Source of the DNA: Pseudonocardia broussonetiae | GTDB taxonomy: Bacteria; Actinomycetota; Actinomycetes; Mycobacteriales; Pseudonocardiaceae | Reading direction: 5' to 3' | Assembly (NCBI RefSeq): GCF_013155125.1 | Contig: NZ_CP053564.1 | Span: forward strand, 5,835,501-5,899,500 | Length of the DNA stretch: 64,000 nt | Part shown: piece after piece, positions 40,069 through 59,385 of the stretch | Layout of the letters: each line of letters starts with the position of its first letter | How positions within the stretch are numbered: position 1 is the stretch's first letter | Notes under the pieces: model-generated | The model's input: the letters and a program-made list of their open reading frames with translations, nothing else | Told to the model about the DNA's origin: nothing | Databases searched by the model: none | Program-made: the position numbers and the translations under genes

Positions 40069-40115
40069 CGCTGGATGCGGCCACCGGCACCGGCAGGCGC
40101 CGACCGGCCACACTC

Positions 40116-44910: not shown

Positions 44911-44975
44911 CGCCCGTCCTCCGCCTGTGCTCGTCCCTACCCACCCCGGGCCTCCTGCGTCGGCCCGTCCATCCC

Positions 44976-46013
44976 TCACTGGATCGCGATCAGCGTTTTG
45001 AGCGTACGGCGCCCGGCCATGCGTGCATATGCCTCCGGAACGGCGTCGAGCGGCACGGTCTCCGACGCCACGACCGTCGGGTCGACCGCGCCGGAGCGCA
45101 CCAGCGCCAGCAGCGGGCCGGCGTCGCGGGCGAGGTCGCCGATGGCGAAGGTCAGGGTCAGCTCGTCGGCGAAGGCGCGCGCCACCGGCAGTTCCCAGCC
45201 CGGGTCGGTGTGCACGCCGACGGAGACGACGGTGCCGCGGCGGCGCACGAGTGCGAACCCGGTCTGCAGGCCGCGGGGCCCGCCGATCGCGTCGATCACG
45301 GCGTCGGCACCGCGGCGGTCGGTGAGCCGGTCGACGAGCGCGCGGGCGTCGTCGGGGGTGGCCACCACGGCGCCCTGGGCGGCCGCGAGCTCGCGACGGG
45401 CGTCGACGGGCTCCACGAGCACGACGATCCCGGCCCCGCAGGCCTGCGCGGCGAGGCTGGTGAGCTGCCCGACCGGTCCTCCGCCGATGACGGCGACGGT
45501 GTCGCCGGGCCGGATCGCCGCCCGCTGCACCGCCGCGTACCCGGTGGCGAGCGTGTCGCCCAGGAACACCGCGGCGTCGACGTCCACGCCGTCGGGGACC
45601 GCCTGCAGGACCGTGTCGGCGTGAGGTACGCGGACCAGTTCGGCCTGCGCACCCGGCAACGCGGGGCCGAACGCCGAGCCGGTGCCGAAGAACTGTCGCT
45701 CGGCGCACTCCCAGTGATCGCCGCGGCGGCACCACCAGCACCGGCCGCACGACGTGAAGTCCGCTCCGACCACGAGGCCACCGCGGCGATGACCGTGCAC
45801 GCCGGCGCCCAGGTCCACCACCTCGCCCACGAACTCGTGGCCGAGGACGAAGCCCTCGGGCAGCCCGGTCGGATGGGCGACGACGTGCAGGTCGGTGCCG
45901 CACACGGCCGCACGGCGCACCCGCACGACGACGTCGGTGGGCTCCTCGACACCCGGGTCGGGCACGGTGTCCACCTCGACCCGCCCCTCCCCCGTGTACA
46001 CGACGGCTCTCAC
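44976..46013 (-). CDS. Zinc-dependent medium-chain alcohol dehydrogenase
   Basis: A 345-residue MDR enzyme. Catalytic zinc motifs are 'CGTDLHVV' and 'GHEFVGEVV', the structural zinc site 'CGRCWWCRRGDHWEC' is complete, and the NAD site is 'VIGGGPVGQLTSLAAQACG'. It probably reduces the pathway aldehyde or oxidises the alcohol, regenerating cofactor inside or beside the shell, the role iron-type PduQ/EutG plays elsewhere. Its GTG overlaps the stop of the malate dehydrogenase fusion (GTGA). It is the last enzyme gene of the operon. Confidence 0.9.
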   Translation of the reverse strand: MRAVVYTGEGRVEVDTVPDPGVEEPTDVVVRVRRAAVCGTDLHVVAHPTGLPEGFVLGHEFVGEVVDLGAGVHGHRRGGLVVGADFTSCGRCWWCRRGDHWECAERQFFGTGSAFGPALPGAQAELVRVPHADTVLQAVPDGVDVDAAVFLGDTLATGYAAVQRAAIRPGDTVAVIGGGPVGQLTSLAAQACGAGIVVLVEPVDARRELAAAQGAVVATPDDARALVDRLTDRRGADAVIDAIGGPRGLQTGFALVRRRGTVVSVGVHTDPGWELPVARAFADELTLTFAIGDLARDAGPLLALVRSGAVDPTVVASETVPLDAVPEAYARMAGRRTLKTLIAIQ

Positions 46014-47296
46014 CGTGTCAGCGCTCCCACGCGCTCGCGGATCCGGTCGGCGGCCGCGCGCAGCGCGGTGAGCTCGTCGGGCGCGAGGTCGACCTCGACG
46101 ATCTCCCGCACCCCACCCCGGCCCAGCCGGACGGGCAGCCCGACGTAGACGTCGCGGATGCCGTAGGTGCCGTCGGCCAGCACCGCGGCGGGCAGCACCT
46201 CGCCGGTGTCGCGGACCATCGCGAGCACCATCGACGCGGCCGCCGTGCCGGGCGCCAGGAACGCGCTGCCGTTGCGCAGCAGGCCGACCACCTCGGCGCC
46301 GGATCCTCGGGCCCGGTCGACGGCCGCGTCGACCCCGTCGGCCACCTCGGCGAGCGGGCGGCCACCGACCGTTGCCTGCGAGAGCGGGATGACCATCTCC
46401 TCGCCGTGGCCACCCAGCGCGAGCGCGCGCACCCGGTCGGGGCGATCCCCTGCCGCCGGTGCCACCAGCGCCCGGAAGCGCGCGGTGTCGAGCACCCCGG
46501 CCATCCCGACGACCCGCTCGGCGGGCAACCCCGACGCCTGCCAGGCGTGCTGGGTCATCTCGTCGAGGGGGTTGGTGACGACGACGAGCACCGCGTCCGG
46601 GGAGGTCCGCGCGGCTCGCGCGGCCACGTCGCCGACGATCGCGGCGTTCGAGCCGACCAGGTCGGCGCGGCTCATCCCGGGCTGCCGGGCCCGTCCCGCG
46701 GTGATCACGACGTAGTCGGCGGCTCCCGCCTCCTCGACCGTCCCGCACCCCCGGACCCGCGTGGCGAACCCACCGAGAGCCGCGGAGTGCGCGAGGTCGA
46801 GCGCCACCCCGCGGGCCCGGCCCTCGTCGACGTCGACCAGGACGATCTCGCCGAACACGTCGGCGTCGGCGAGGCGCATCGCGGTGACCGTGCCGACGTT
46901 CCCCGCCCCGACCACGATCACCCGCCGGACCGCGCCGGGACGGACGGCGGACGGCAGCGGGGCGCCCCGCCGGAACAGCGCGCCCGACGGCGGCCGGACC
47001 GGGCGGGGGGCGGTCGAGCTGCGACCGGTGACGGTCGGCGGGCGGGCACCTGCCGGCGAGGGGCGCGGGGCGGCGGGTGCCGGTCGCGGCGGCGGCACCG
47101 ACGAGGTCCCGGACCCGGTACGGCGGTCCCCGGTGACCGCGGCCGTCGTGCCCGGCGTGGCGACGACGATCTCGACGCCCCGCTCCCTGGCCCGTTCGCG
47201 CGCCAGCGGGGTGACCACGTCGCGCGGGCCGACGGCCAGGATCCCGGCCTGCGCCGCCGCGTCGACGTCGTCGGCCCCGACCACGCGGGAGCTCAT
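46010..47296 (-). CDS. EutQ-like N-terminal segment fused to a malate dehydrogenase-type enzyme
   Basis: A 428-residue protein. Residues 1-46 ('AGILAVGPRDVVTPLARERA' and flanks) resemble the N-terminal motif of EutQ and other microcompartment proteins. Residues 50-120 are a Pro/Ser/Ala-rich linker. Residues 124-428 are an LDH/MDH enzyme: Rossmann 'VVGAGNVGTVTAMRLAD', 'DLVGSNAAIV', 'NPLDEMTQHAWQASGLP' and the catalytic-His motif 'GGHGEEMVIPL'. The Arg in 'AGRARQPGMSR' is the residue that favours malate over lactate. The N-terminal part probably recruits the enzyme to the shell to recycle NADH. Its ATG overlaps the BMC-T stop. Confidence 0.88.
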   Translation of the reverse strand: MSSRVVGADDVDAAAQAGILAVGPRDVVTPLARERARERGVEIVVATPGTTAAVTGDRRTGSGTSSVPPPRPAPAAPRPSPAGARPPTVTGRSSTAPRPVRPPSGALFRRGAPLPSAVRPGAVRRVIVVGAGNVGTVTAMRLADADVFGEIVLVDVDEGRARGVALDLAHSAALGGFATRVRGCGTVEEAGAADYVVITAGRARQPGMSRADLVGSNAAIVGDVAARAARTSPDAVLVVVTNPLDEMTQHAWQASGLPAERVVGMAGVLDTARFRALVAPAAGDRPDRVRALALGGHGEEMVIPLSQATVGGRPLAEVADGVDAAVDRARGSGAEVVGLLRNGSAFLAPGTAAASMVLAMVRDTGEVLPAAVLADGTYGIRDVYVGLPVRLGRGGVREIVEVDLAPDELTALRAAADRIRERVGALTR

Positions 47297-47919
47297 CGCC
47301 CGTCCTCCCGCCCGTGCATCCCCTCCAGCGCGGCCACCGCCGCGTCCCGGGCCGTCACCACGTCGCTCTCGCTGCCGGACAGGAACATGCGCCCGAACCG
47401 GCCGACCGCCCGCAGCTCGATCACGGTGATGTCGGCGGCCTTCTCGGCCTCGTTGGCCGCGACGGCGATGTATGCCGCCGGGGCCACCTCCATGACCAGC
47501 AGGCTCTGCCCGGGCATCATCATCGAGCCCTTGCGCCACTTGTTGAGCAGCTGCGCCTGGTAGGGGTGCACGTTGGTGATGAACTGGGTCGACGCGATCG
47601 TCGGCCGGATGCGGTCCGCCTCGGTCAGGCCGAGCTCGTCGAGCACCGCCTGCCCGGAGGCCAGCACCTCCGCCTGCTGCTCGGAGTGGATCTCCAGCAG
47701 CCCGAACTCGCGCTCGATGATCTGCAGGGCCGGGCGGACGCCGGAGGCCTTGAGCGCGATGTCGGCGGCCCGGAACACCTCGTTGCCCGGCGCCATCTCG
47801 ATGTAGAGCTCCGCCATCCCGGCCAGCGGGACGTCACCGGGGCTGGTGGCCGCGATGTGCGCCGCGCACTGCGGCTGCATCCGGTCCACGAACGCGTAGG
47901 TGCGCAAGGTGGGAGTCAC
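47293..47919 (-). CDS. Tandem-domain trimeric shell protein (BMC-T)
   Basis: A 208-residue protein with two BMC domains in tandem. The first includes 'TYAFVDRMQPQCAAHIAAT' and 'MAELYIEMAPGNEVFRAADI'; the second includes 'GQSLLVMEVAPAAYIAVAAN' and 'RFGRMFLSGSESDVVTARDA'. By recall it is closest to the mycobacterial RMM-type BMC-T, which forms stackable, gated pseudohexamers. The GTG start overlaps the upstream EutJ-like stop (GTGA). Confidence 0.9.
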   Translation of the reverse strand: MTPTLRTYAFVDRMQPQCAAHIAATSPGDVPLAGMAELYIEMAPGNEVFRAADIALKASGVRPALQIIEREFGLLEIHSEQQAEVLASGQAVLDELGLTEADRIRPTIASTQFITNVHPYQAQLLNKWRKGSMMMPGQSLLVMEVAPAAYIAVAANEAEKAADITVIELRAVGRFGRMFLSGSESDVVTARDAAVAALEGMHGREDGR

Positions 47920-48728
47920 GGCGCCGACCTCGCGATCCCGAGCGGCGTGATCAACAGGGCGTGCGGGTAGGTCACGACGGGGCGCTCCAGCCATTCGGCC
48001 AGCACGGAGTCCGCGCCGGGGATCATCAGGGCACCCCCGGCGAGGTGCACGGGAAGGTGCTCCACGCCGCGGGTCATGGAACGGACCGACTCGGCGATCC
48101 TCTGCAGGCCGGGCACGAGGATCGGGAAGGCCCCGGCCGGATCCTCGCGCTTGCGCGCCTCGGCCTGCTCCACCGGGATCCGCAGCGCGCCGGCCAGCAC
48201 CAGGTCGAGGTGGTGCCCGCCGCCGGCCCGGTCGTCGAGGGCCTCGAGCACGCCGTCCCGGAAGACACCGACGCCTGTCGAGCCGCCCCCGACGTCGACC
48301 ACCACCCCGTCCCGGACGTCGAGCGTGCGCTGCGCGGCGGTGACCTCGTCGACCAGGACGACGTCGGCGAACCCGGCCGTCTCGCAGACGTAGGTGCACG
48401 CCCGAGCGTCGCGGACCGGGATGCACGGAGGGTAGGCCGTGGCGGTGGCCGTCAGCGGTGCGCCGAGCGCCTCCTCGGCCCGCGTCCGCAGGTGCCGCAC
48501 GGCGGCCACCGCGGCAGCGAAGTCGACCACCACCCCGTCGCGCAGCGCGCCCGACGGGTGGGCGTCGACCCACACCGGGGCGCCCGAGGCGTCGAGCACC
48601 ACCAGCACGCAGGTGGCCGTGCCGAGGTCGACGCCCACCCGCAGCGGCCCGGTCACGGTCTCCGGGACGGTGCCGGCGCAGGCCGCGGCGGCGTCCAGCA
48701 GCGCGCGTGGGTCGGTGGTCACGATCAC
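47916..48728 (-). CDS. eutJ: EutJ-like Hsp70-fold chaperone/ATPase
   Basis: A 270-residue actin/Hsp70-fold protein with phosphate-1 loop 'GVDLGTATCVLVVLD', phosphate-2 'VVDVGGGSTGVGVF' and an adenosine-type 'LAGGALMIPGADSVLAEWL'. EutJ is found in ethanolamine and RMM microcompartment loci; its job, perhaps shell or cargo assembly or enzyme reactivation, is not settled. The GTG at 48728 overlaps the aldehyde dehydrogenase stop, with a second GTG at 48722. It is part of a tightly coupled operon. Confidence 0.88.
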   Translation of the reverse strand: MIVTTDPRALLDAAAACAGTVPETVTGPLRVGVDLGTATCVLVVLDASGAPVWVDAHPSGALRDGVVVDFAAAVAAVRHLRTRAEEALGAPLTATATAYPPCIPVRDARACTYVCETAGFADVVLVDEVTAAQRTLDVRDGVVVDVGGGSTGVGVFRDGVLEALDDRAGGGHHLDLVLAGALRIPVEQAEARKREDPAGAFPILVPGLQRIAESVRSMTRGVEHLPVHLAGGALMIPGADSVLAEWLERPVVTYPHALLITPLGIARSAP

Positions 48729-50113
48729 AGTTCCACCGGGTCGTACACGGTCCGCCACGGCCGCACCTCGTGCGCGATCCGCTTGATGTTGATCAGGTGC
48801 AGCGGGGTGACGTTGTCCGAGCAGATCGAGCCGCTCCACGTGCCGGTGCCGAGCTGGAAGGACGGGTCGACCTCACAGGAGTAGCCCATGCCGCCGAACA
48901 GCGCCGGGGTGTTGATCACGATCCGGCCGGCCGGGAGCGTGCCGAACGGGGCGATCTCCTCGGGGTCGGCAGCGTGCACCGCGCACGTGTGGCCCTCGCC
49001 GTCGAGCGCGAGCACCTCGCGGCAGCGCGCCCAGCCGGCCGCGGCGTCCGGCTCCCGGTACACCGACAGCACGGGACCGAGGATCTCGCGGGAGAGCGGC
49101 GTGTCGAGCCCGACCCGGTCGAGCCTCGCGGCCAGCACGCGCGTGCGGGTGGGCACGGCGAACCCGGACAGCTCCGCCAGTCCCACCGCGCTCTGCCCGA
49201 CCGCGGCCGGGCGCAGGGCCCCCCGCTCGTCGAACAGCGTGCGGACGAGCGCGGCCTGCTGGGCCTCGTTCATCCAGTGGGCACCCCGCTGCTCGAACGC
49301 GGCGAGGAAGGCGTCGGCCACGGCCTCCACGACGACCACCGACTGCTCGGCGACGCACGCCGTGCCGTTGTCGAACGACTTCGACGTGATGATCATCTCG
49401 GCGGCCTCGGCCGGGTCGGCGACCGACGCCCCGACATAGGCGGGCACGTTCCCCGCCCCGACGGCTATGGTCGGCTTCCCGCTGGAGTACGCGGCGCGGA
49501 CCATCCCCGGCCCACCGGTGGCGAGCACGAGCGCGATCTCCTCGCGGCGCATCAACTCCTGGGTCGAGGACAGCGTCGGCGACTCCAGGCAGGAGATCAG
49601 CCCCTCCGGGGCACCGGCGCCCACTGCCGCCTCGGCCATGATCTCGGCGGCCCGCAGCGTGCACCGGGCGGCTCGGGGATGCGGGGCGAGCACGATCGCG
49701 TTGCCCGACTTCACCGCCGCCAGGCACTTGAACAGCGCCGTCGACGTCGGGTTGGTCACCGGGATGATCCCCGCGATGACGCCCATCGGGCTGCCGACGG
49801 CGGTGACGCGGGCGTCCTCGTCGACCCACAGCACGCCCACCGCCCGGCGTTCCAGCATCCAGCGGGCGACGAAACCGGTGTTGTAGCGGTTCTTGTGGAT
49901 CTTGTGCTCGTAGACGCCGTAGCCTGTCTCGTCCACGGCGAGCCTGGCCAGCTCCTCGGCGCCCTTCGTGCCGGCGAGGGCCATGGCCCGTACGAAGCGG
50001 TCGAGGGTCTCCTGGTCGCAGCCGGCGAGCCGGTCGAAGGCCTCCCGCGCCGCCCGGGCCTTGCTCCGGACGTCCGCGAGGCCCGCCAGGTCGGCGTCCC
50101 ATGCAGCCGTCAC
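48725..50113 (-). CDS. CoA-acylating aldehyde dehydrogenase (PduP/EutE type)
   Basis: A 462-residue enzyme. The catalytic cysteine is in 'KSFDNGTACVAEQSVVVV', 'GVIAGIIPVTNPTSTALFKC' is the coenzyme-binding stretch, and the C-terminal signature 'SDNVTPLHLINIKRIAHEV' is typical of acylating members. It converts an aldehyde plus CoA and NAD+ into acyl-CoA and NADH, the hallmark metabolosome core reaction. No N-terminal amphipathic encapsulation peptide is visible, unlike PduP, so targeting may use another route. It follows BMC-H by 6 bp. Confidence 0.93.
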   Translation of the reverse strand: MTAAWDADLAGLADVRSKARAAREAFDRLAGCDQETLDRFVRAMALAGTKGAEELARLAVDETGYGVYEHKIHKNRYNTGFVARWMLERRAVGVLWVDEDARVTAVGSPMGVIAGIIPVTNPTSTALFKCLAAVKSGNAIVLAPHPRAARCTLRAAEIMAEAAVGAGAPEGLISCLESPTLSSTQELMRREEIALVLATGGPGMVRAAYSSGKPTIAVGAGNVPAYVGASVADPAEAAEMIITSKSFDNGTACVAEQSVVVVEAVADAFLAAFEQRGAHWMNEAQQAALVRTLFDERGALRPAAVGQSAVGLAELSGFAVPTRTRVLAARLDRVGLDTPLSREILGPVLSVYREPDAAAGWARCREVLALDGEGHTCAVHAADPEEIAPFGTLPAGRIVINTPALFGGMGYSCEVDPSFQLGTGTWSGSICSDNVTPLHLINIKRIAHEVRPWRTVYDPVEL

Positions 50114-50119
50114 CGGGGA

Positions 50120-50449
50120 TCAGCCCTTCGGGCGGGTGAGGATCGCGAGAATGCCCTCGGTCTCGTCGTGCGGGCGCGGGATGACGTGGACCGAGACGAC
50201 CTCGCCCGCCTTGCCCGCGGCGACGGCACCGGCGTCGGTGGCGGCCTTCACCGCGCCGACGTCACCACGCACCATGATCGTCACCAGGCCGCCGCCGATC
50301 TCGCGGTGCCCGACGATCTGCACGTTGGCGGCCTTCACCATCGCGTCGGCGGCCTCGATCGCCCCGACCAGGCCCTTCGTCTCGATCAGGCCCAGCGCAC
50401 CGCGCGGCCCGGTCGGCGTGCCGGCTGCGCCGGTCGAGGGGGTTGCCAT
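50120..50449 (-). CDS. Bacterial microcompartment hexameric shell protein (BMC-H), copy 2
   Basis: A 109-residue protein: a 17-residue Pro/Gly/Thr-rich N-terminal tail followed by one BMC domain ('[20 protein letters not shown]', '[19 protein letters not shown]', '[11 protein letters not shown]'). The ATG at 50449 is clear. Copy 1 at 42519 lacks the tail, so the two may differ in packing or cargo contacts. It is the second gene of the main operon. Confidence 0.95.
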
Positions 50450-50480: not shown

Positions 50481-50774
50481 TCAGAACTTGCTGTAGGTGA
50501 CGGTGCCGTTGCGGACGACCGTGTCGGCGATCGCGACGACCGCCCGGTCGGTGGGGGCGTCGGCCCCCGCGGCGATCCGCGCGGCCCCGCCGGCCGCCAC
50601 CAGGACGATCTCGCCGACACCGGCCCCCACCAGGTCGACGGCCACGTAGGCCGCGCCGGTGGACCGCTCGGGATCGGCGCCGGTGGCGTCCTGCAGCAGG
50701 AGCAGGGTGAACCGCTCCAGGCCCGGCTCCTTGACCGTCGCGACCACCTGCCCCAGCACCTTGGCGAGCAGCAC
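50481..50774 (-). CDS. Pentameric vertex shell protein (BMC-P, EutN/CcmL family)
   Basis: A 97-residue beta-barrel protein: '[20 protein letters not shown]' at the N-terminus, '[20 protein letters not shown]' in the middle and '[12 protein letters not shown]' near the end, all EutN/CcmL landmarks. Pentamers cap shell vertices. The GTG start is supported by GGAGGTGAC seven bases upstream. It is the first gene of the leftward operon, so shell and enzymes come from one promoter. Confidence 0.94.
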
Positions 50775-50903: not shown

Positions 50904-50972
50904 GGACGCTCTGGCCGGACCTCCTCGCCGCAGGCAGGGTGAGCGGTGACGCAGGACACAGGAGGTGCACCG

Positions 50973-51959
50973 GTGATCCGTCCCGAGGACGCTCAGTTCC
51001 ACCCGCCGACCAGCGACGACCCGCTGTGGGCGGAGACCAACTACTTCGGCCTCTACGCCGCTCAGGACACCGAGGCGCCGATCAACATCGGGGTCTACGG
51101 CCTGTTCCGCGAGCCGCTCGGTGTCGTCGGCTCGACGGTGTCGGTGAACCGCAGACGCGTGACGATGCCGTGGGCCGCGGACTACTGGGACGCGTGGGAG
51201 CACCTCGTCGTACCCCAGCCGTCGAACCTGCTGGACTACGAGCTGGCCAACGGTCTCAAGGTCGTGTGCTCCGAGCCGAACGCGGTGTGGGACGTCTCCT
51301 ACACCGACGCCGCCGCCGGGCTCGACCTGCGCTTCCGGTACACGGCGCTGATGGAGGCCTACGACATCAACGACCCGGCCCAGGACCCGATGGCCGCCGG
51401 CAAGGACATGGCCAAGACCTGGGGCCACGCCTACGCCGGCCACTTCGACCAGACCGGGCACTTCGAGGGCGATCTGTCGCTGCGCGGCGAGACGTTCCCG
51501 ATCGACTGCGTGTCCACGATGGACCACAGCTGGGGCGTGCGCGCCGAGCGGCAGGCATCGCGCCTGTCGTGGATGCACGCCCACTTCGACCGCGACCTCG
51601 CGATCCACGTGATCTCCGACTTCTCCACCGACGCCGGTCCCGATGCGCCCTCCCCGCTGACGATGACCCACGGCTACGTGCTGGAGGGCGGCAAGGTCCA
51701 CGGCCTCAAGGCCGGAAGCGGCACGTCGTGGAGGACGGGGTTCTACGGCGAGGCGGTGCAGCTGTCGGTCACCGACTCGGCCGACCGCACGTGGGAGCTG
51801 GAAGGTACCGGGCTCACGACGTTCCCGTGGCAGGCGTGGCCGGGCACCGTCGGGCACAACGTGCTGCACCGCTGGACGCTGAACGGCCGCACCGGGTACG
51901 GGGAGTGCATGGACTTCATCGGCCTCGGCGAGCTCGGCGCCGTCTACAACCGGGCCTGA
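50973..51959 (+). CDS. CrtC/AttH-like lipocalin-fold protein (DUF7064-like)
   Basis: A 328-residue protein with no signal peptide. The motif 'STMDHSWGVRAERQASRLSW' is typical of the hydroxyneurosporene synthase (CrtC)/AttH group, whose two lipocalin-like domains bind hydrophobic ligands; some members hydrate double bonds. The reaction here is unknown. The GTG at 50973 is preferred because GGAGGTG lies five bases before it; GTG 50946 is possible. It diverges from the shell operon and heads a three-gene unit with two phosphatase-like genes. Confidence 0.7.
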   Translation: MIRPEDAQFHPPTSDDPLWAETNYFGLYAAQDTEAPINIGVYGLFREPLGVVGSTVSVNRRRVTMPWAADYWDAWEHLVVPQPSNLLDYELANGLKVVCSEPNAVWDVSYTDAAAGLDLRFRYTALMEAYDINDPAQDPMAAGKDMAKTWGHAYAGHFDQTGHFEGDLSLRGETFPIDCVSTMDHSWGVRAERQASRLSWMHAHFDRDLAIHVISDFSTDAGPDAPSPLTMTHGYVLEGGKVHGLKAGSGTSWRTGFYGEAVQLSVTDSADRTWELEGTGLTTFPWQAWPGTVGHNVLHRWTLNGRTGYGECMDFIGLGELGAVYNRA

Positions 51960-51960
51960 C

Positions 51961-52998
51961 ATGGCCGGGCCTACCCACACCGGGCCTCCTTCGTCGTCCC
52001 TTCCGTCCCCCGCGCCGCCGGTGCGGGCCGTCGTCTTCGACCTCGACGGCACGCTGGTGCAGACGCGCGTCGCGTCATGGGAGGTGTTCTCCCGGATCAA
52101 CGACCGGTTCTCGCTCGGCGTCGACAGCCCGGAGCGCTACTTCGACCTGTTCCGCAACAACGTGTTCGCCTCGATCCGTACGCTGTGCCGCGACGAGGCG
52201 CACGCCGACGAGGTGAAGGCGGCGTTCCTCGCCCTGCTGCGCACCGACTACACGCCGGCGATGATCCCCGGGATGAGCGACGTGGTCAGGAGGCTCGCCG
52301 GGGACTGCACGCTCGCGGTCATGTCGTCCAACGCGATGCAGGTGCTGCGCCGCGTGCTCGTCGCAGGCGACCTGGCCTTCTGCTTCGCCCATGTGTTCGG
52401 CGGCGACGTGGCCCCGGACAAGCGGGCCGCGATCCGCGCGTTCCTCGCCGACTCCGGCAGCGGGTTCGGCCGGCGCTGCGCCGCCGACTACGACGAGGCC
52501 GGGCAGCACCCGGCGCCCGACCCGGCCGGCACGGTGCTGGTCACCGACACGGCGGGCGACGTGCGCGACGCCCGGGAGACCGGCATCCGCGTCGTCGGCG
52601 TGGCGTGGGGGATGCACTCGGTCGACGAGCTCCTCGACGCCGGGGCGGAGTTCGTGGCGCTGTGGCCGCAGGAGATCACCGCCTACCTGCTGGGCGACGC
52701 GGCGGTGGAGCCGCCGGGCGGGGCGTGTGCCGTGCCGGCCCGCCCCGTGGAGAAGGACTGCGGGTGCGGATGCTCAGGCACCGACGGGCAGGACGACCCG
52801 GTCCGGGAGGCCGCTGCGGCCCGCCGACGGCGCCGCACCGCGGCGAGGTCGCACGTGCTCGCCGCGCTGCCCACCGCCCCCGCCCCGGATTGCAGTAAGG
52901 CCACCTTGCCGCAACCAGACGGCAGCAAGGTGGCCTTACTGCAATGCGTGCCGGCCGAGCTGCTCGCCGCCGTGCGGGCCGTGTGCGCCGATGGCTGA
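51961..52998 (+). CDS. HAD-family phosphatase with unusual C-terminal extension
   Basis: A 345-residue protein. The HAD core (residues about 20-235) has motif I 'VFDLDGTLVQTR', motif II 'VMSSNAMQVL', motif III lysine in 'APDKRAAIRAFL' and motif IV 'VTDTAGDVRDA', so it should hydrolyse a small phosphate ester, like phosphoglycolate phosphatase. The last 100 residues are not HAD-like: a Cys-rich patch 'CGCGCSG', an Arg-rich stretch and a segment encoded by a 21-bp inverted repeat. The ATG starts one base after the CrtC-like stop. Confidence 0.85.
   Translation: MAGPTHTGPPSSSLPSPAPPVRAVVFDLDGTLVQTRVASWEVFSRINDRFSLGVDSPERYFDLFRNNVFASIRTLCRDEAHADEVKAAFLALLRTDYTPAMIPGMSDVVRRLAGDCTLAVMSSNAMQVLRRVLVAGDLAFCFAHVFGGDVAPDKRAAIRAFLADSGSGFGRRCAADYDEAGQHPAPDPAGTVLVTDTAGDVRDARETGIRVVGVAWGMHSVDELLDAGAEFVALWPQEITAYLLGDAAVEPPGGACAVPARPVEKDCGCGCSGTDGQDDPVREAAAARRRRRTAARSHVLAALPTAPAPDCSKATLPQPDGSKVALLQCVPAELLAAVRAVCADG
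52889..52945. repeat. Perfect 21-bp inverted repeat within the HAD gene
   Basis: Arms at 52889-52909 and 52925-52945 are exact reverse complements with a 15-bp loop. Each arm is itself close to palindromic around AAGGCCACCTT. The element is translated in frame near the C-terminus. It resembles a dispersed repeat or hairpin inserted into the gene's 3' end. Confidence 0.85.
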
Positions 52999-53737
52999 CC
53001 CCGGCGGTCGGCACGTCTCGCCGCTGGCCGGGGCGTTCAACTTCCGCGACCTCGGCGGGCTGCGGGCGGGTCCGCTGCGCCGCGTGCGCGACGGCGTCCT
53101 GTTCCGCAGCGACACCCTCCAGGCACTCACCGACGACGACGTCACGCGGCTGGTCGACCGGCTCGGCGTCGAGCTGCTGGTGGACCTGCGGCTCGGCGCC
53201 GAGACGGTGACGCAGGGGCGCGGACCGATGGCCGCCGCGGGGATCTGCTACCTCAACGCGCCGCTGCCCACGGCGCCGGTGACCGACGTGCCCCCGGCCG
53301 AGCAGACCCTGCACTTCTACCGCTCGACCCTGAACTCACCCGGTCCGGTGCTGCCGACGGTGGTACGGGTCCTCGCGGCGACCGCGGGCCGCCCGACCGT
53401 CCTGCACTGCGCCGCAGGCAAGGACCGCACCGGGCTGGTGACGGCACTGACGCTGAGCCTCGTCGGTGTCGACGAGTCCGACATCGTCGACGACTACCTG
53501 GCGAGCGCCCACAACATGCCGCGCATGGTCGAACGGTTCCGCGGCTGGCCGTTCTACCGCGACCACATGGCGGCGGTGGCGCCCGAGCTCTACCAGACGC
53601 ACGAGGGGACCATCCGCGGCTTCCTCGACGTGCTCGACCGGGACTGGGGCGGGGCCGCGGGCTGGGCCGCCGCCCGCGGGATCCCCGCCGCGGTGCTCGC
53701 CGAGCTCACCGACGGGCTGCTGGAGCCGGTCCCCTGA
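52991..53737 (+). CDS. Tyrosine-phosphatase-fold protein (Y_phosphatase3 type)
   Basis: A 248-residue protein. 'FNFRDLGGLRAGPLRRVRDG' at the N-terminus and the P-loop 'HCAAGKDRTGLV' (CX5R complete) match the LipA/IphP-like atypical phosphatases that act on phosphotyrosine or phosphoinositides; small phosphate monoesters are also possible. Its ATG overlaps the HAD stop by 8 bp. It converges with the dikinase-like gene 4 bp away. Two phosphatases beside a phosphotransfer operon suggest phosphorylated intermediates. Confidence 0.85.
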   Translation: MADPGGRHVSPLAGAFNFRDLGGLRAGPLRRVRDGVLFRSDTLQALTDDDVTRLVDRLGVELLVDLRLGAETVTQGRGPMAAAGICYLNAPLPTAPVTDVPPAEQTLHFYRSTLNSPGPVLPTVVRVLAATAGRPTVLHCAAGKDRTGLVTALTLSLVGVDESDIVDDYLASAHNMPRMVERFRGWPFYRDHMAAVAPELYQTHEGTIRGFLDVLDRDWGGAAGWAAARGIPAAVLAELTDGLLEPVP

Positions 53738-53741
53738 CGGG

Positions 53742-56219
53742 TCACCCGGCGAGCGCGGCCTTGCCGAGGGCGAGCACGAGCGGGCGGGTCTGCGCGGCGT
53801 CGACGGCGAAGCGACGGAAGCCCGAGGCGTACAGCTGGGCCGCGACCGTGTCGGACACCTCGCCGGACAGCCGCATCCCGATCCGTCGACCGGAGTCGTC
53901 GGTCGCCCTCGCGACCTCCGTGAGCAGAACCTGCACCGAGGGATCGAGCGTGGTCCGCGGATCGCAGCTCAGCAGCCCGCGCCGCAGGTACCCGTCCAAC
54001 GGCTCCGCGGTGAGCAGCTGGCGGGCGGGGATCCCGAACATCGCCGCCTGCAAGGTGCGCACCTCGAGCCAGACGACCGCGCTGGCCGCCGCGATGTCCA
54101 CCGCTCCGTAGGCGGCCCTCGGGCTGGTCAGGTAGGTGCCGACGGTGACATCCGGCCCGGTCTCCTCCGCCAGCGCCGTGAGCGCGCGGGCCTCCATCGG
54201 GTCGCTGATGTGCCGTACCGCGAGGTGGACGCGGGCGCGCGATCCGGACGCCAGCACCGCACGCCCCAGGCCTTCCAGTTGCGCCCGGACCAGCTCCGGG
54301 CGGCCCAGCGGTACCGACAGCTCCGGGTGCCGCGTCGTGACGGCCGTCTGCTGGAGCAGCTCGCGGGCCTCGTCGGCGACCAGGTCGATCGCGCGGACGC
54401 CGACCTCCACGTCGCCCGCGGCCGCCAGCAGCGGGGTGAACTCGGCCTCCACCAGTGCCGCGATCGCGCCGAAGCCGTCCCGGCCGGCACCGTGGCCGAG
54501 CAGCCCCTCCACGAGACCGTCCAGGTGACCGGTGGCCGCCAGCACGTCGTCGACGGCCGTGACCAGGCCGTGTGCTCCCGCCTCGCGCGCGCCGGCCACA
54601 TCGCCGGGCAGCGTCACCCGGCAGAGCACCTCGCAGCGGGCGGCATCGGCAGCGACCGCGAGCAACGCCGACATCGACCCGGTCGCCGACGCCGGGGTCG
54701 ACGTGGCGAAGGACCCGGTGAACAGTTCGCCGGTGGCGCCGTCGAGGGAGACGGGCTCGCCCTCGGCGATGCTCCGCCCGTCCACCGCGAGGACGCGGGC
54801 CTCCGGGTCGACCGTCATCGCCGACGCACCGACGACGCAGGCCGTGCCCAGGGCGCGGGCGACGACGGCGGCGTGGCTGGTGGAGCCACCGGTGGCCGTG
54901 ACGATGCCCTGCGCCGCGATCATGCCGTGCAGGTCGGCCGGGCTGGTGACGGCCCGGGCGAGGATCACCGCGGTGCCGGCGTCGGCCGCCTCCTTCGCCC
55001 GGTCGGGATCCAGGACGAGCTCGCCGCTGACCTGGCCGGGGCAGGCCCCGATGCCCGTGGTCAGGAGCCGCCCGTCCTCCCGGGCCGCCTCGACGTCCCC
55101 GTCGGCGAAACCGGGCCGCTGCACCTGGCGGACCTGCTCGGAGGAGACCGCCCGCAGCGCGGCACCCGGCGTCAGGGCACCCTCGGTGAGGAGGTCCGAG
55201 GCGATCCGCACCGCCGCCTCCGGGGTGCGCTTGGCGCTGCGCACCTGCAGCAGCCACAGCGTGGAGCGTTCGACGGTGAACTCGATGTCGAGCACGTCGC
55301 CCTGGCGCCGCTCCAGCTCGGCGCAGGTCGTCCGCAGCTCGTCGAGCACCTCCGGGGCGAGCGCGGTGGCGACCGGGTCGGGGGTGCGGGTGCCGGCCAC
55401 CACGTCCTCACCCTGGCTGTGCGCGAGGTACTCGCCGAACAGCCCCGGCTCGCCGGTGACCGGGTTGCGTGTGAAGACCACGCCCGAGCCGGAGTCGGAG
55501 GACAGGTTGCCGAACACCATCGCCTGCACCACGACGGCGGTGCCGAGGTCGTGCGGGATCTTGTGGTGGTCACGGTAGGTCCGGGCCCGGCGGGTGTTCC
55601 AGGAGCGGAAGACGGCCTCCACCGCGCCGACGAGCTGGGCGCGCGGGTCGTCCGGCACGCTCTCGCCGCAGTCGTCGTCCAGTGCCTTCTCGCACGCCGC
55701 CCACACGCGGTCGTGGACCGCGCCCGGGTCGTCGTCCGCAGAGACGGCGGCGACGAGGTCGGCGATGCCGTCGCCCGGGTCGAGAGCACCCAGCACCGTC
55801 TCGGCGTACATGGCGTGGAAGCGGGCCACGAGATCGGCGGTGAACCGGACGTCGTGGGTAGCCGTCGCCATCGCGATCGCGGCCTCGCGGCCGAGCCCGA
55901 GGTTGAGGACGGTGTCCATCATCCCGGGCATCGAGATCGGCGCCCCGGAGCGCACGGACAGCAGCAGCGGCAGCGGACCCGTCCCGAACGTCTTGCCCGA
56001 CGCCGTCTCCAGGGCCGCGAGCCGGTCGAACACCTCGTCGACCAGCCCGTCCGGCATCGCGCCCGCGGCGAGGTAGTGGCGGCAGGCGTCGGTGGAGACG
56101 ATGTACCCGGGCGGCACGCGCAGCCCGTCCTGCGTCATGCGGGCCAGACCGGCCCCCTTGCCGCCGAGCCGGTCGACGTCGGCGGGATCGGCGTCGGTGA
56201 ACGTGAGCGTGAAGGTCAT
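53742..56219 (-). CDS. Pyruvate phosphate dikinase-like phosphotransferase with degenerate C-terminal barrel
   Basis: An 825-residue protein. The N-terminal ATP-grasp half is intact ('GGKGAGLARM', 'VVFTRNPVTGEPGLFGEYLA', 'DIEFTVERSTLWLLQVRSAK'), as is the phosphohistidine domain, with His449 in 'GGSTSHAAVVARALG'. The C-terminal TIM barrel keeps its length but lacks the PPDK catalytic signatures: where 'GLCRTE' is expected it reads 'GLVTAV', 'GTNDLTQM' is replaced by 'LEVRTLQA', and the Cys of 'CGEHGGD' is missing ('RLSGEVSD'). It can probably phosphorylate its histidine from ATP but not act on pyruvate/PEP, so the acceptor must sit elsewhere, perhaps on the partner proteins. Its ATG overlaps the upstream stop. 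Confidence 0.85.
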   Translation of the reverse strand: MTFTLTFTDADPADVDRLGGKGAGLARMTQDGLRVPPGYIVSTDACRHYLAAGAMPDGLVDEVFDRLAALETASGKTFGTGPLPLLLSVRSGAPISMPGMMDTVLNLGLGREAAIAMATATHDVRFTADLVARFHAMYAETVLGALDPGDGIADLVAAVSADDDPGAVHDRVWAACEKALDDDCGESVPDDPRAQLVGAVEAVFRSWNTRRARTYRDHHKIPHDLGTAVVVQAMVFGNLSSDSGSGVVFTRNPVTGEPGLFGEYLAHSQGEDVVAGTRTPDPVATALAPEVLDELRTTCAELERRQGDVLDIEFTVERSTLWLLQVRSAKRTPEAAVRIASDLLTEGALTPGAALRAVSSEQVRQVQRPGFADGDVEAAREDGRLLTTGIGACPGQVSGELVLDPDRAKEAADAGTAVILARAVTSPADLHGMIAAQGIVTATGGSTSHAAVVARALGTACVVGASAMTVDPEARVLAVDGRSIAEGEPVSLDGATGELFTGSFATSTPASATGSMSALLAVAADAARCEVLCRVTLPGDVAGAREAGAHGLVTAVDDVLAATGHLDGLVEGLLGHGAGRDGFGAIAALVEAEFTPLLAAAGDVEVGVRAIDLVADEARELLQQTAVTTRHPELSVPLGRPELVRAQLEGLGRAVLASGSRARVHLAVRHISDPMEARALTALAEETGPDVTVGTYLTSPRAAYGAVDIAAASAVVWLEVRTLQAAMFGIPARQLLTAEPLDGYLRRGLLSCDPRTTLDPSVQVLLTEVARATDDSGRRIGMRLSGEVSDTVAAQLYASGFRRFAVDAAQTRPLVLALGKAALAG

Positions 56220-56836
56220 TCGACGCGTTCCCGGCCCAGGGTGCGCAGCAGGTCCTCGTGGAACTCGAACCAGACGTTGTGCACCGAGTCGAGTGTGGGC
56301 GAGGAGACCAGCTCGTGGCGCCCGGCGTCGATGCCCTCCATCGCGACGGAGAAGCGACGCGGGTAGGCGTCGAAGCGCGGGTCGCGCCGAGCCAGCGCGT
56401 CGAGGAGCGGGCCGAGACGCTGGACGAGCTTGTCCAGCCGCGCGATGACCTTGTCGTCGTACTCGGCGTCGGAGTGGTCGTTGGTGACCTTCCGGCCGCC
56501 CACCTCGATCTGCTGCCAGGACGACATCGTGGTCAGGAACTGGGCGTTCACAGTCTCGAACCGATCGACCAGCGGCACGAGGTCCGGGTCCTCGCGCATC
56601 GCCGCGTAGTGGTGCGCCGCGGCCGCGACCAGTGCGGGCTCGGCCTCGTCGGCCGGGAACACGGCACCCGCCGCGTCCACGACCAGTCCCTGCCCGGCGA
56701 GCCGCTCCAAGGCCGATCCCACGTCGGACGCGGCCATCCCGGTGTCGCCGGCGATCACGTCGGCGGCGACCATCTTCTTGAGTGCGACGACGTTCAGCAC
56801 GTCGTAGTCGGTCTTGTCCAGGACCGGGGCGGTCAT
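56216..56836 (-). CDS. Winged-helix/helical-bundle protein, dikinase partner
   Basis: A 206-residue protein. Residues 1-65 look like a winged helix ('MAASDVGSALERLAGQGLVV'). Residues 75-206 are mainly helical with many conserved-looking acidic and aromatic residues ('AEYDDKVIARLDKLVQRLGP', 'VHNVWFEFHEDLLRTLGRER'). No family is recognised. Its stop overlaps the dikinase-like start (ATGA), indicating coupled synthesis and probably a complex. It might be a subunit or specificity factor rather than a DNA-binding regulator. Confidence 0.7.
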   Translation of the reverse strand: MTAPVLDKTDYDVLNVVALKKMVAADVIAGDTGMAASDVGSALERLAGQGLVVDAAGAVFPADEAEPALVAAAAHHYAAMREDPDLVPLVDRFETVNAQFLTTMSSWQQIEVGGRKVTNDHSDAEYDDKVIARLDKLVQRLGPLLDALARRDPRFDAYPRRFSVAMEGIDAGRHELVSSPTLDSVHNVWFEFHEDLLRTLGRERVE

Positions 56837-56917
56837 AGAGGTTCCTTCCCGTGCAACGGACACCGGGCGGCGCGCGCACGGCGCGCCGCCCGGTGGGACG
56901 ACAGGGGACGAGCCGCC

Positions 56918-58348
56918 CTAGAGCCAGCGACCCTTCGAGTTGCGGCGGTCGGCGTCCTCGGAGAAGGGCAGGTAGCCCGCGCCCGAGAAGATCTTGCTGG
57001 GCACCGTCGCCTGGGCGAAGCCGCGCTTGGTGATGTCGTAGTAGTAGTTCGCGACGCGCTGGTCGATCTCCCAGAGGTCGTAGTCCTGGCACGCCTTCTC
57101 GTAGGTCCCGGCCAGCCGCAGGTGCGGAAGGATCATGTCCACGTAGTAGACGTACTGGCCGTTCCAGATCAGGTCGCGCCGGTTCATCCGGGCGGTCTTG
57201 CTGTAGAGCTTCAGCGTGGCGCTCTGGACGCGGCCGAGGTGGTCGGCCAGATCGTCGATCTTGATCGGGTACACCTCGCCCATCGGGGTGTCCCACTTCT
57301 CCCGGGCGAACACCGCACCGCCCGTGATGGCCTCGATGTAGTTCTTCGGCCGGGTGAACGTGGTGGAGATGTCGTTGACCCGGATCTCGGCCAGCGACAT
57401 CTTCTCCGGGTCGATGGTCAGCGCGAGCGTGTAGCAGTGCGGGAGACCCTCGTCGTCGCAGACGTCGCTCCAGTGGAACGCCTCCTCGTTGACGAACAGG
57501 TCGCGCAGGATCAGCAGCTGCCCGTCCGGCAGCTCGTACGGACCGGTGTCGCCCAGGCCCAGCCGGCAGTCGTAGTGGTCGAGGAACGACAACAGCTCCG
57601 CAGCCGCGTTGAACTGGGTGAACGCGCTGTGCTTGGGGCTGCCGTTCTCGATCGGCTCGATCTGCGAGGTGATCTGCGAGAGGAAGTCCGGCTCGTGGAT
57701 CTGGCAGCGGTAGTTGTCCTGGGAGTTGAGGATGAAGCCGTCCTGCCGCTTGCCCCACAGGACGCGCTGCATGAACTTGAGGATCTCGTTGCTCTCGCCG
57801 ATGTAGTCGTCCGGGCCGATGACCTCCAGCGCCAGCAGGCCACAGCGCCCCATGCCGAACCCGACGGCGCCGATGCACCAGTCGTGCACCGCGTTGACCT
57901 TGGTGCCGATCTCGCGGCGCGCACTGGCGCCGATGTCCATGATCCCCTGCGCACCCACCTCCTTGGTGGTCATGCGCAGGATCTCCGGCCACCGGTAGAA
58001 CTCGTGCATGAAGGCCAGGATCTCGTACTCCTGGCGCGGGATCATACCGCTGACGCCCTCGGTGGCGCGCATGACGAGCACGTCCCAGATGTTCCAGGCG
58101 AGGTAGTTGTTGAGGTCGTTGAGCTCGGGGATGGTGAACTCGTCACGGAGGACGTCCTCCTTCGACACCCTCTCCAGCACACCGCTCTTCGCGCGCTCCT
58201 TCATCATCCGGTCGCCCTTGATCCCGTCGACGACGGGCTCCATGCCGACGAAGTTGCCGGTGTAGGTCAGGTCCTGGAAACGCAGGCCGTCGTCACCGGG
58301 CTCGTACCGCTTCTTGTAGGTGGCGCGCTTGCCCTCAGTCGTGGTCAC
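56918..58348 (-). CDS. Unrecognised 476-residue protein, core of the phosphotransfer operon
   Basis: No family could be assigned. The protein is soluble and, unlike most genes here, rich in aromatic, Asn and Asp residues with few Ala/Arg runs, the composition of an ancient conserved enzyme. Notable stretches are 'HDWCIGAVGFGMGRCGLLAL', 'QDNYRCQIHEPDFLSQITSQ', 'LGLGDTGPYELPDGQLLILR' and 'RVANYYYDITKRGFAQATVP'. It lies between the swivel-domain gene (33 bp upstream) and the winged-helix/dikinase pair. I infer it is the substrate-binding or catalytic component that accepts the phosphoryl group. The GTG start follows AGGAGT. Confidence 0.75.
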   Translation of the reverse strand: MTTTEGKRATYKKRYEPGDDGLRFQDLTYTGNFVGMEPVVDGIKGDRMMKERAKSGVLERVSKEDVLRDEFTIPELNDLNNYLAWNIWDVLVMRATEGVSGMIPRQEYEILAFMHEFYRWPEILRMTTKEVGAQGIMDIGASARREIGTKVNAVHDWCIGAVGFGMGRCGLLALEVIGPDDYIGESNEILKFMQRVLWGKRQDGFILNSQDNYRCQIHEPDFLSQITSQIEPIENGSPKHSAFTQFNAAAELLSFLDHYDCRLGLGDTGPYELPDGQLLILRDLFVNEEAFHWSDVCDDEGLPHCYTLALTIDPEKMSLAEIRVNDISTTFTRPKNYIEAITGGAVFAREKWDTPMGEVYPIKIDDLADHLGRVQSATLKLYSKTARMNRRDLIWNGQYVYYVDMILPHLRLAGTYEKACQDYDLWEIDQRVANYYYDITKRGFAQATVPSKIFSGAGYLPFSEDADRRNSKGRWL

Positions 58349-58381
58349 TGTGTACTCCTGTCCGTGTCGGGGTGCGGGCGC

Positions 58382-58801
58382 TCAGTCGTCGGCCACGACG
58401 CGGCCGACCTCGTGGTCGGTGCACTCGAGCCGGACCTTGCGGCCGTCGAGGGCCTTCGCGATCTCCACGAAGTGCTCGTCGCCGGTCTCGCCGACGACGT
58501 AGCGGGACTCGCTGGTGGTGAGGGAGGCGGTCATCACACAGGGGGTCTGGAACTCCCGCGTGAGGATCCCGAGGTGCGACTCGGGCGAACCCGACATGGT
58601 GATCACGCCGATGGCGCCCATGCTCAGGGCCGGCGCGAGGAAGGTGGTCGTACCCCCGCGGACCAGCAGGATGTGATCCTTGAGCTTGCCCGACTTGATC
58701 AGACCGATCACGTCCGCAGGCTTCTCCAGGTACTTGATCGTCCCGCTGGGTGACTTGGCGGTGTCGAAGACGTTGTAGCCCTCGGCCAGGACCTCGGCCA
58801 T
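58382..58801 (-). CDS. Free-standing PEP-utilizer phosphohistidine (swivel) domain protein
   Basis: A 139-residue protein equal to one mobile phosphohistidine domain of PEP synthase/PPDK enzymes. 'HILLVRGGTTTFLAPALSMG' is followed by the active-site segment 'SGSPESHLGILTREFQTPCV' with His76, which aligns with the usual '(T/C)-S/C-H-A-A-I-V-A-R-E-L' motif. With no ATP-grasp of its own it would need another protein to be phosphorylated; the dikinase-like protein in the same operon is the obvious donor. The ATG has a perfect AAGGAGG site. First gene of the four-gene operon. Confidence 0.82.
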   Translation of the reverse strand: MAEVLAEGYNVFDTAKSPSGTIKYLEKPADVIGLIKSGKLKDHILLVRGGTTTFLAPALSMGAIGVITMSGSPESHLGILTREFQTPCVMTASLTTSESRYVVGETGDEHFVEIAKALDGRKVRLECTDHEVGRVVADD

Positions 58802-58897
58802 GCGTTCCTCCTTGAACCTGCTCCGGATGACTCGCCCGGGCTGCTCCGAGCGGGCCCCGGGTAGCGGCGTCGCTGGCCTCACTGTGCCGTCCGTCAC

Positions 58898-58925
58898 TTG
58901 TCCCACCGATGGTCTGTTCGGATAG
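58898..58925. promoter_or_regulatory. Possible microcompartment-locus operator with extended spacer
   Basis: TTGTCC and GGATAG half-sites are separated by 16 bp, that is 5 plus about one helical turn. It lies 96 bp before the swivel-domain gene. Confidence 0.35.
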
Positions 58926-59385
58926 AACTGGTCGGGCCGCTTGTCTCGACCGGACAACGCCAACGGCCGGCTGCCCTCCCCCAGCACCGTGGTCACCTCG
59001 GCGTCCAGGTCCGTGCCGCTGACCGTCAGTTGGCACAGCTCCGACACCCGCACATCGGTGTCCAGCAGCACCCGGACCAGCGCGTGGTCACGCCGTTCGA
59101 GGAACGACCGGCCCACGCACCACGCGAGGATCGCCTTGAGCTGGTGGTCACCGAGCACCTCCGGCGGCAGGTCGACGCCGGGTCGCTGGTCAGGTACTCC
59201 TCCTCGACCAGCCACCGGCCGACGCTGCGCACACCGGCGATCTTCGTGTTCGTGGTCGAGGCCTCCCACCGGTCGGCGTCGTCGAACACCCAGCCCTCGA
59301 GGTTCTCGCGCGTCACGTCGGCCAGGTCCGCCCGACCCGTCGAGGCCCGCAGCCGGTCGCAGAACCGGGTGATCGAGGCGAGTCA
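58925..59385 (-). pseudogene. Frameshifted tyrosine recombinase/integrase remnant
   Basis: One minus-strand frame gives a core-binding domain ('TTNTKIAGVRSVGRWLVEEE', 'YLTSDPAS'). After a frameshift near 59180 another frame gives the start of the catalytic domain ('RRDHALVRVLLDTDVRVSEL', containing the first catalytic Arg, then 'TGLTV'-like 'CQLTVSGTDLDAEV'). The H-x-x-R and tyrosine boxes are missing. It is a decayed XerC/D-like integrase at the edge of the microcompartment locus. An operator copy lies inside it. Confidence 0.7.
58941..58957. promoter_or_regulatory. Microcompartment-locus operator, copy 3
   Basis: TTGTCT-CGACC-GGACAA, an inverted repeat with one mismatch. It lies 139 bp before the swivel-domain gene that starts the four-gene phosphotransfer operon. 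Confidence 0.55.

Follow-up and report, generated by a model that had tools for sequence, protein, structure and literature searches.

What does a relative of pyruvate phosphate dikinase (PPDK) phosphorylate once its pyruvate site has gone? The question is raised by a minus-strand operon of Pseudonocardia broussonetiae, located in a stretch of 64,000 nucleotides of contig NZ_CP053564.1 (5.84-5.90 Mb of the 7.29 Mb genome) that is called the window hereafter. Its four genes encode a free-standing phosphohistidine domain (the swivel), an unrecognised protein of 476 residues (X476), a small helical protein (WH) and a PPDK-like protein (PP). A sequence-only reading of this DNA had proposed a phosphohistidine relay towards a new acceptor, perhaps an alcohol or ketone. 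The evidence presented here favours a small alcohol and narrows the proposal further. The module is very probably a kinase of a small-molecule hydroxyl group, and a tertiary alcohol is probably its acceptor. As a complete description, we lean slightly towards a dikinase of four proteins whose phosphoryl acceptor is a tertiary alcohol, probably a C5 isoprenoid and most likely 2-methyl-3-buten-2-ol (MBO).

Structure of the putative donor protein

In Pfam, PP scores 151 bits against PPDK_N and 67 bits against PEP-utilizers, and PEP-utilizers_C reaches 14.1 bits, under its cut-off of 22.8. Residues 4-554 match the NCBIfam PPDK model TIGR01828 with 555 bits, under the cut-off of 843, and the short PPDK model NF004531 with 510 bits, over the cut-off of 456. 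Over this range PP aligns with PPDK through the ATP-grasp and swivel domains; unlike PPDK, it lacks the catalytic residues of the phosphoenolpyruvate (PEP)/pyruvate barrel. When PP is set against the full-length PPDK encoded in its own genome, its ATP-grasp and swivel motifs prove intact, while GICGEHG has become RLSGEVS (Cys to Ser), GTND has become EVRT and RTE has become AVD. The by-eye claim that PP keeps its ATP-grasp half and His449 and has lost these three barrel motifs is borne out, and to judge from the motifs the PEP/pyruvate active site is lost and the barrel dead.

His449 is His in 61/61 PP rows, the window included, and the phosphohistidine of the separate swivel polypeptide, His76, is His in 68/68 swivel rows, again with the window. 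Conservation of PP is dense across the ATP-grasp/swivel half and sparse across the barrel. Some distant PP relatives possess no barrel at all, which fits a donor-only role for PP.

The proposed acceptor-side proteins

X476 found no match in Pfam, NCBIfam or PDB searches and matches no known family, as its earlier description as unrecognised had implied. WH gave no Pfam match over cut-off and no NCBIfam match. The AlphaFold2 model of X476 (pLDDT 84.6, pTM 0.87) has no significant PDB match (Foldseek, VIA), and the lack of RPH from the match lists is not evidence of a different fold. The invariant residues of X476, in relatives down to 22% identity, include Arg94, Tyr108, Gly167-Arg168, Arg262, Gly269-Pro270-Tyr271, Arg282, Trp293 and Tyr401, as might be expected for a putative phosphate- and alcohol-binding site.

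The subunit logic is suggested by gene fusions. In Rhodococcus opacus B4 a single protein (793 aa as annotated) joins a swivel (41% identity), an X476-like part (38%) and a WH-like C-terminus (43% over 54 residues), and swivel-X476-like fusions are also found in Rhodococcus pyridinivorans and in the window's own genome. Such fusions indicate that swivel, X476 and WH form a single acceptor-side unit, with PP as the donor. X476 is likely the acceptor subunit, and the phosphohistidine relay with a dead PEP/pyruvate barrel, as first proposed, gains support from these sequences. The possibility that the R. opacus B4 genes form a cre cluster is countered by the swivel-first domain order and by the dissimilarity of X476 and CreH. 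The window's own genome holds a distant second cluster (L094; G000:C1:5537734-5550438) with three X476-like genes (26-28%), swivels and a barrel-less PP-like protein; by eye it includes a biotin-carboxylase gene, and it resembles a plasmid cluster of R. pyridinivorans (L008).

The closest precedents are the aromatic dikinases PpsAB (phenylphosphate synthase), CreHI (4-cresol kinase) and HpeHI (hydroxyphenylethanone kinase), described in the consulted parts of PMC12167813 and PMC9618137 as an ATP-grasp subunit, a phosphohistidine swivel and a non-pyruvate acceptor domain. They too are encoded in catabolic clusters. However, they consist of two polypeptides with the swivel fused to the acceptor, whereas here there are four, with a separate swivel, an extra subunit (WH) and a PPDK-type donor that has its own swivel and a dead barrel. 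No relation of X476 to their acceptor domain emerged from comparisons with PpsA and CreH: BLASTP detected no similarity to PpsA from Azoarcus KH32C, whose gene adjoins phenylphosphate carboxylase genes, or to a CreH-type protein, and profile-profile comparison (hhalign) gave probabilities of 0.1 and 0.2 percent. X476 as a phenol or ketone kinase acceptor of the PpsA/CreH/HpeH family was rejected on these grounds. The likeness to the phenylphosphate synthase of Thauera that the sequence-only reading had drawn thus holds in logic, but the module is not a member of that group.

Distribution and gene linkage

Homologues of X476 number 445 at E<=0.001, of which the best 120 were inspected; identity is 68-98% among the relatives listed. 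Neighbourhoods were compared at 70 X476 loci from Actinobacteria, Proteobacteria and a few others, collected in one genome scan with two peptide patterns, so that distant members such as that of Methylibium petroleiphilum PM1 lie outside the set. Pseudonocardia dioxanivorans CB1190, Xanthobacter oligotrophicus 29k and Methylocella silvestris TVC are among the strains with a locus. Each locus reaches at most 10 kb per side, and the 49 with 8 kb on both sides are termed long.

A swivel gene lies within 250 b upstream of X476 on the same strand at 66 of the 68 loci with room and at both loci with little room. Two loci depart from this: in L074 X476 is split, with the swivel beside its first part, and in L080 a 96-residue X476 remnant without swivel is followed by PP. 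WH is found within 400 b downstream at 62/65 loci with room (not L051, L069 and L080), and PP follows at 56/60 (not L051, L053 and L069, nor at that spacing in L080). PP relatives occur elsewhere in the genomes of L051 (full-length) and of L053 and L069 (both barrel-less). Homologues of X476 are therefore not routinely found without their partners. The same order is found across phyla and is not due to chance.

Further genes accompany the module. The long loci contain DUF7064 (43), HAD (43), shell genes (41), the aldehyde dehydrogenase AldDH (41), EutJ (37), Mdh (26), a zinc alcohol dehydrogenase (21) and Y_phosphatase3 (14); where Mdh, the zinc enzyme, DUF7064 or HAD is missing, the gene may be cut off or truly absent. 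Loci with shell genes and loci with AldDH (at least 60% identity) overlap in 40. The usual proteobacterial order is [ADH-Mdh-BMCT-EutJ-AldDH-BMCH-EutN] divergent from [DUF7064-HAD-swivel-X476-WH-PP], often with a second BMC-H gene thereafter. The four genes of the original description are indeed linked, but the unit also takes in the DUF7064 and HAD genes (50946-52998 in the window) across an intergenic gap. Automatic clustering of the unmatched neighbouring open reading frames (ORFs) revealed no further widely shared gene, the best reaching 8/70.

Co-occurrence of X476 with bacterial microcompartment (BMC) genes was also examined in 298 genomes that belong to the window's order. X476 (E<=1e-60) is present in 4, and the same 4 contain BMC-T of at least 81% identity; in the other 10 genomes with BMC-T matches (E<=1e-20) identity is at most 55%. 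With the window left out, the coincidence is 3/3 among 297 genomes, a probability of about 2e-7 assuming independence, which these genomes do not fully possess. Together with the shell genes of the long loci, this bears out the suggested association.

Rhodococcus oxybenzonivorans carries the whole module, the shell operon and alcohol dehydrogenase, aldehyde dehydrogenase and CoA ligase genes on a 984-kb plasmid, pRB98 (L005), classed as mobilizable. One module (L063) lies on a contig titled as a Klebsiella pneumoniae metagenome-assembled genome, possibly a mis-binned metagenome contig. Decay or sequencing error is seen at L057 (PP in pieces, and EutN split elsewhere in the genome), at L074 (the split X476) and at L080, where the X476 remnant is joined to PP.

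Clues to the substrate and product

The first clue comes from loci without shell genes. For nine of ten, the genome has no EutN match at all; the tenth (L057) is that with the split EutN. Two shell-bearing controls were positive. Alcohol dehydrogenase, acyl-CoA ligase and aldehyde dehydrogenase genes lie beside the module in 7/9 (L047, L052, L056, L062, L065, L067 and L076), the other two being the Rieske loci L053 and L069 described below. A soluble alcohol-to-acyl-CoA route thus seems to substitute for the shell operon, and the shell loci L034 and L035 carry both.

Two of these seven loci also possess methylcrotonyl-CoA carboxylase genes. After its module, Pseudomonas sp. NFACC02 (L076) has genes for carboxylase beta, a hydratase, carboxylase alpha and 3-hydroxy-3-methylglutaryl-CoA (HMG-CoA) lyase. 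Methylcrotonyl-CoA carboxylase (3u9r) matches the beta subunit with 1065 bits; a chain named propionyl-CoA carboxylase follows with 851, another methylcrotonyl enzyme with 806 and geranyl-CoA carboxylase with 480. In Endobacter (L056) a single strand reads ADH-ligase-ALDH-carboxylase beta-biotin synthase-carboxylase alpha-CoA lyase-like-3-oxoacid CoA-transferase A-DUF7064-HAD-swivel-X476-WH-PP. Xanthobacter (L052) has an HMG-CoA-lyase-like gene, and its alcohol dehydrogenase resembles benzyl alcohol dehydrogenase. An ORF of L065 that by eye, from its first residues, suggested HMG-CoA lyase had no NCBIfam match at 1e-30 and was not counted. A search beside L076, L056, L052, L062 and L065 (three references, 11 stretches) detected no acyl-CoA dehydrogenase, a weak negative, as one reference missed the other two in a control. 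Formation of 3-methylcrotonyl-CoA from a tertiary alcohol points to the sequence MBO, prenol, prenal, 3-methylcrotonate. An initial isomerisation of MBO to prenol has been proposed for PM1, Aquincola tertiaricarbonis L108 and Pseudomonas putida MB-1, its enzymes being called uncharacterised in the consulted part of PMC4791888.

The second clue is an oxygenase. Three of the 70 loci contain a Rieske oxygenase with 57-62% identity over more than 450 residues to a protein of PM1 that, by its gene order, we infer to be Mpe_B0555 (MdpJ). The gene stands directly after WH or X476 in L053 and L069; in the shell-bearing L051 it follows X476 at a distance of 1.4 kb, with a BMC-H gene in between. Among 72,556 plasmid records, the best of the other matches to the PM1 protein (E<=1e-60) is 44%. 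A table in PMC4517660 gives MdpJ as the tert-butyl alcohol hydroxylase of PM1, and the title of a cited paper names it a tertiary-alcohol desaturase, with tert-amyl alcohol broken down via MBO.

The methyl tert-butyl ether (MTBE)/tert-butyl alcohol island of PM1 resembles the window in that, within 30 kb on its plasmid, genes for DUF7064 (50%), an X476-like protein, swivel and WH (36% each) and full-length PP (42%) lie around mdpJ; it differs in that its X476 is only 33% identical. A DUF7064 profile run against 10 stretches with other kinase clusters matched solely this island (L007). The annotated genes of the two stretches examined there include no shell gene. Genes of the 2-hydroxyisobutyryl-CoA mutase type lie beside the X476 modules of L022 (1541-6822) and L007 (12261-21095), and the mutase operon of L022 has a second WH-like gene.

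The third clue is structural. Among PDB structures, the predicted model of the DUF7064 protein best matches 25-phosphosteroid lyase, an enzyme whose substrate is the phosphate of a tertiary alcohol; by sequence the two share no detectable similarity. In anaerobic cholesterol degradation (PMC8449060), 25-hydroxysteroid kinase (25-HSK) phosphorylates a tertiary alcohol and the lyase then eliminates the phosphate. The arrangement proposed here would be alike in phosphorylating a tertiary alcohol ahead of a C-O lyase, DUF7064 being of lyase fold in its model. It differs in using four proteins, whereas 25-HSK is one protein of the phosphotransferase family (40 kDa band), whose reaction runs freely in both directions with ADP/ATP and whose activity on small tertiary alcohols is below 0.1%.

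Proposed pathway and alternatives

The domains, the histidines, the dead barrel, the gene linkage and the dehydrogenase and ligase genes of shell-free loci are read from the sequences themselves, and from them we infer a phosphoryl route, a substrate, a rearrangement and an order of enzymes. The ATP-grasp domain of PP would phosphorylate a swivel histidine, converting ATP to AMP, and the phosphoryl group would move to His76 of the free swivel with WH as a coupling subunit. The swivel would hand it to the hydroxyl of an alcohol held by X476. The DUF7064 protein may then ionise the tertiary (allylic) phosphate, with re-addition of phosphate at the primary carbon to give dimethylallyl phosphate, from which the HAD (or Y_phosphatase3) protein would release prenol. 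Alcohol dehydrogenase would convert prenol to prenal, and the acylating AldDH, inside the shell, prenal to 3-methylcrotonyl-CoA; in genomes without a shell, a soluble aldehyde dehydrogenase and a CoA ligase would form this product instead. For MBO to prenol specifically, we regard the case as evenly poised.

Several observations weigh against this pathway. The product genes adjoin few loci, none of them actinobacterial, and AldDH is nearest to acetaldehyde-type enzymes. Mutase genes of a C4 route adjoin the PM1 and L022 modules. The nearest model of the L076 hydratase is named gamma-carboxygeranoyl-CoA hydratase (526 bits), which points in the opposite direction to the beta subunit; a geranyl-CoA (C10) product at L076 is nevertheless disfavoured, as the carboxyltransferase is nearest to a methylcrotonyl-type structure.

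Among the alternatives, an ATP-dependent dehydration survives best, though we consider it unlikely: the same dikinase would phosphorylate a tertiary alcohol, DUF7064 would eliminate the phosphate to leave an alkene, and another enzyme would oxidise the alkene. The lyase as closest solved structure, and the steroid precedent, speak for it. It would, however, leave the conserved HAD hydrolase without a clear role, and the alcohol dehydrogenase, aldehyde dehydrogenase and CoA ligase genes suggest an alcohol as product, in loci not searched for alkene-oxidising enzymes.

Another isoprenoid alcohol as substrate is improbable. Isoprenol (3-methyl-3-buten-1-ol), for example, might, once phosphorylated, be turned into dimethylallyl phosphate by isomerisation and then into prenol by loss of the phosphate, reaching the identical end product 3-methylcrotonyl-CoA, but the MdpJ-like oxygenases and the fold match to a tertiary-phosphate lyase favour a tertiary alcohol, and phosphorylation of a primary alcohol does not need the energy of a dikinase. 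We give as little credence to a C4 tertiary compound of the tert-butyl alcohol/2-hydroxyisobutyrate route: the adjoining mutase genes and the listed function of MdpJ are in its favour, but the leucine-pathway genes of L076 and L056 do not fit it, and no kinase appears in the PM1 route table of PMC4517660, as far as that source was consulted. Least probable of all is a phosphorelay that serves regulation or transport and ends on a protein, or a phenol or ketone kinase like CreHI/HpeHI, which would share the phosphohistidine domains and could accommodate the distant X476-like genes near biotin carboxylase genes in R. pyridinivorans, but is opposed by the high conservation of X476, by its company of dehydrogenases (phosphotransferase system genes were not searched for) and by the lack of any profile relation to CreH or PpsA.

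The neighbouring microcompartment operon

The shell operon of the window lies downstream of the dikinase operon on the same strand, and three plus-strand genes sit between the two (Table 1). Among the scanned genes of the shell operon there is no phosphotransacylase; the search did not extend to the whole genome.

Table 1. Coordinates of the dikinase module, the intervening genes and the shell operon in the window
Feature	Coordinates	Strand	Basis or remarks
Free-standing swivel (phosphohistidine) protein	58801-58382	-	139 aa, ATG start; PF00391 32.7 bits; phospho-acceptor His76
X476, proposed acceptor-binding subunit	58348-56918	-	476 aa, GTG start; searches for a family or fold gave no match
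WH, small helical protein, proposed docking/coupling subunit	56863-56216	-	215 aa as longest ORF
PP, PPDK-like phosphoryl donor	56219-53742	-	825 aa; ATP-grasp, swivel His449, degenerate barrel
Y_phosphatase3 protein, possible second small-molecule phosphatase	52991..53737	+	PF13350
HAD-family hydrolase, proposed phosphatase	51961..52998	+	43/49 long loci
DUF7064/DUF7065 protein, proposed tertiary-phosphate lyase/isomerase	50946..51959	+	Pfam; 43/49 long loci
EutN/CcmL vertex shell protein	50481..50774	-	PF03319 80.8 bits
BMC-H shell protein	50120..50449	-	PF00936
Acylating-type aldehyde dehydrogenase (AldDH)	48725..50113	-	PF00171; nearest acetylating acetaldehyde dehydrogenases
EutJ / MreB-like protein	47916..48722	-	PRK15080 279 bits, over cut-off
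BMC-T-like shell protein, 208 aa	47293..47919	-	PF00936
Malate/lactate dehydrogenase-like (Mdh-like) protein, N-terminal extension	46010..47296	-	26/49 long loci
Zn alcohol dehydrogenase	44976..46013	-	21/49 long loci

This gene content recalls MIC1 (metabolosome with incomplete core), for which the consulted part of PMC4207490 gives AldDH, Ldh/Mdh-type and zinc dehydrogenases, a hydrolase, a phosphatase and an MreB-like protein, and which is said there to be without phosphotransacylase and signature enzyme. The window matches the published description, in gene content only, in its shell genes, AldDH, Mdh/Ldh-like and zinc dehydrogenases, hydrolase, phosphatase and MreB-like protein. It differs in its dikinase genes, which that part of the description does not mention. 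A later BMC catalogue (PMC8217296, in part) likewise includes many types with AldDH and no obvious signature enzyme.

It had been suggested that the module may be the missing signature enzyme of the adjacent microcompartment. The link to the shell stands, but the module is not strictly the microcompartment's enzyme: shell-free loci exist, nine of ten of them in genomes with no EutN match, and a kinase makes no aldehyde itself. A broader proposal, to which we give somewhat less than even credence, is that MIC1-type microcompartments are hemiterpene organelles, where the PPDK-derived four-protein dikinase, its acceptor protein having an unseen fold, a lyase-fold phospho-isomerase and a phosphatase would shift the oxygen of MBO from the tertiary to the primary carbon via phosphate esters and the shell would contain prenal.

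Relation to published work

Phosphohistidine small-molecule dikinases are a known kind; new are the acceptor protein and the cellular setting. In the open-licence PMC literature (subscription papers and preprints being outside this scope), no work was found that combines phenylphosphate synthase with microcompartments. Among the best 8 of 10 matches none links it, small-molecule dikinases or rifampin phosphotransferase with microcompartments, though some mention phosphohistidine and microcompartment in work on other subjects, and the best 12 of 57 held no microcompartment work on MBO, prenol, prenal or tertiary alcohols. PPDK or Pseudonocardia combined with microcompartment returned, among the best 15 of 21 matches, the BMC catalogue, the ARO paper and papers that by their titles are unrelated.

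With this proposal, a microcompartment type whose published description has no signature enzyme gains a testable function, and the MBO-to-prenol step gains a candidate. If true, it would explain both an orphan organelle type and an unassigned step of plant-volatile breakdown, and would add a new route to tertiary alcohol activation, relevant also to fuel ethers such as MTBE and tert-amyl methyl ether (TAME). In addition, it suggests that acceptor proteins of one more kind, apparently unrelated, work with the phosphohistidine swivel.

Other features of the window

The order and tight spacing of the four dikinase genes agree with the earlier description. Swivel and X476 are 33 b apart, and the WH stop and PP start overlap as ATGA. 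The 54 b between X476 and WH hold a strong GC-rich inverted repeat (56864-56917; CACCGGGCGGCGCGC...GCGCGCCGCCCGGTG, by eye) without a T run, a possible RNA stabiliser or attenuator. The true start of WH is probably the ATG at 56836. Upstream of the swivel, an open frame (58802-59269) resembles by eye a fragment of a tyrosine recombinase and may be a trace of earlier mobility of the operon.

Of the Y_phosphatase3 protein, a 37% relative is found in the PM1 island, about 18 kb from the X476-like gene, and a gene annotated as tyrosine-protein phosphatase follows the R. opacus B4 fusion. The Mdh-like protein (46010-47296) is extended at its N-terminus by about 120 residues that include a Pro-rich linker and may be an encapsulation region. 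Beside the shell operon, a GAF/PucR-type helix-turn-helix frame (42799-45903) is likely a regulator; helix-turn-helix or PucR-type frames adjoin many relatives. A PPK2 polyphosphate kinase is encoded at 39139-40113, and MFS, GH15, AI-2E-type and IlvD genes, apparently unrelated, are found elsewhere in the window.

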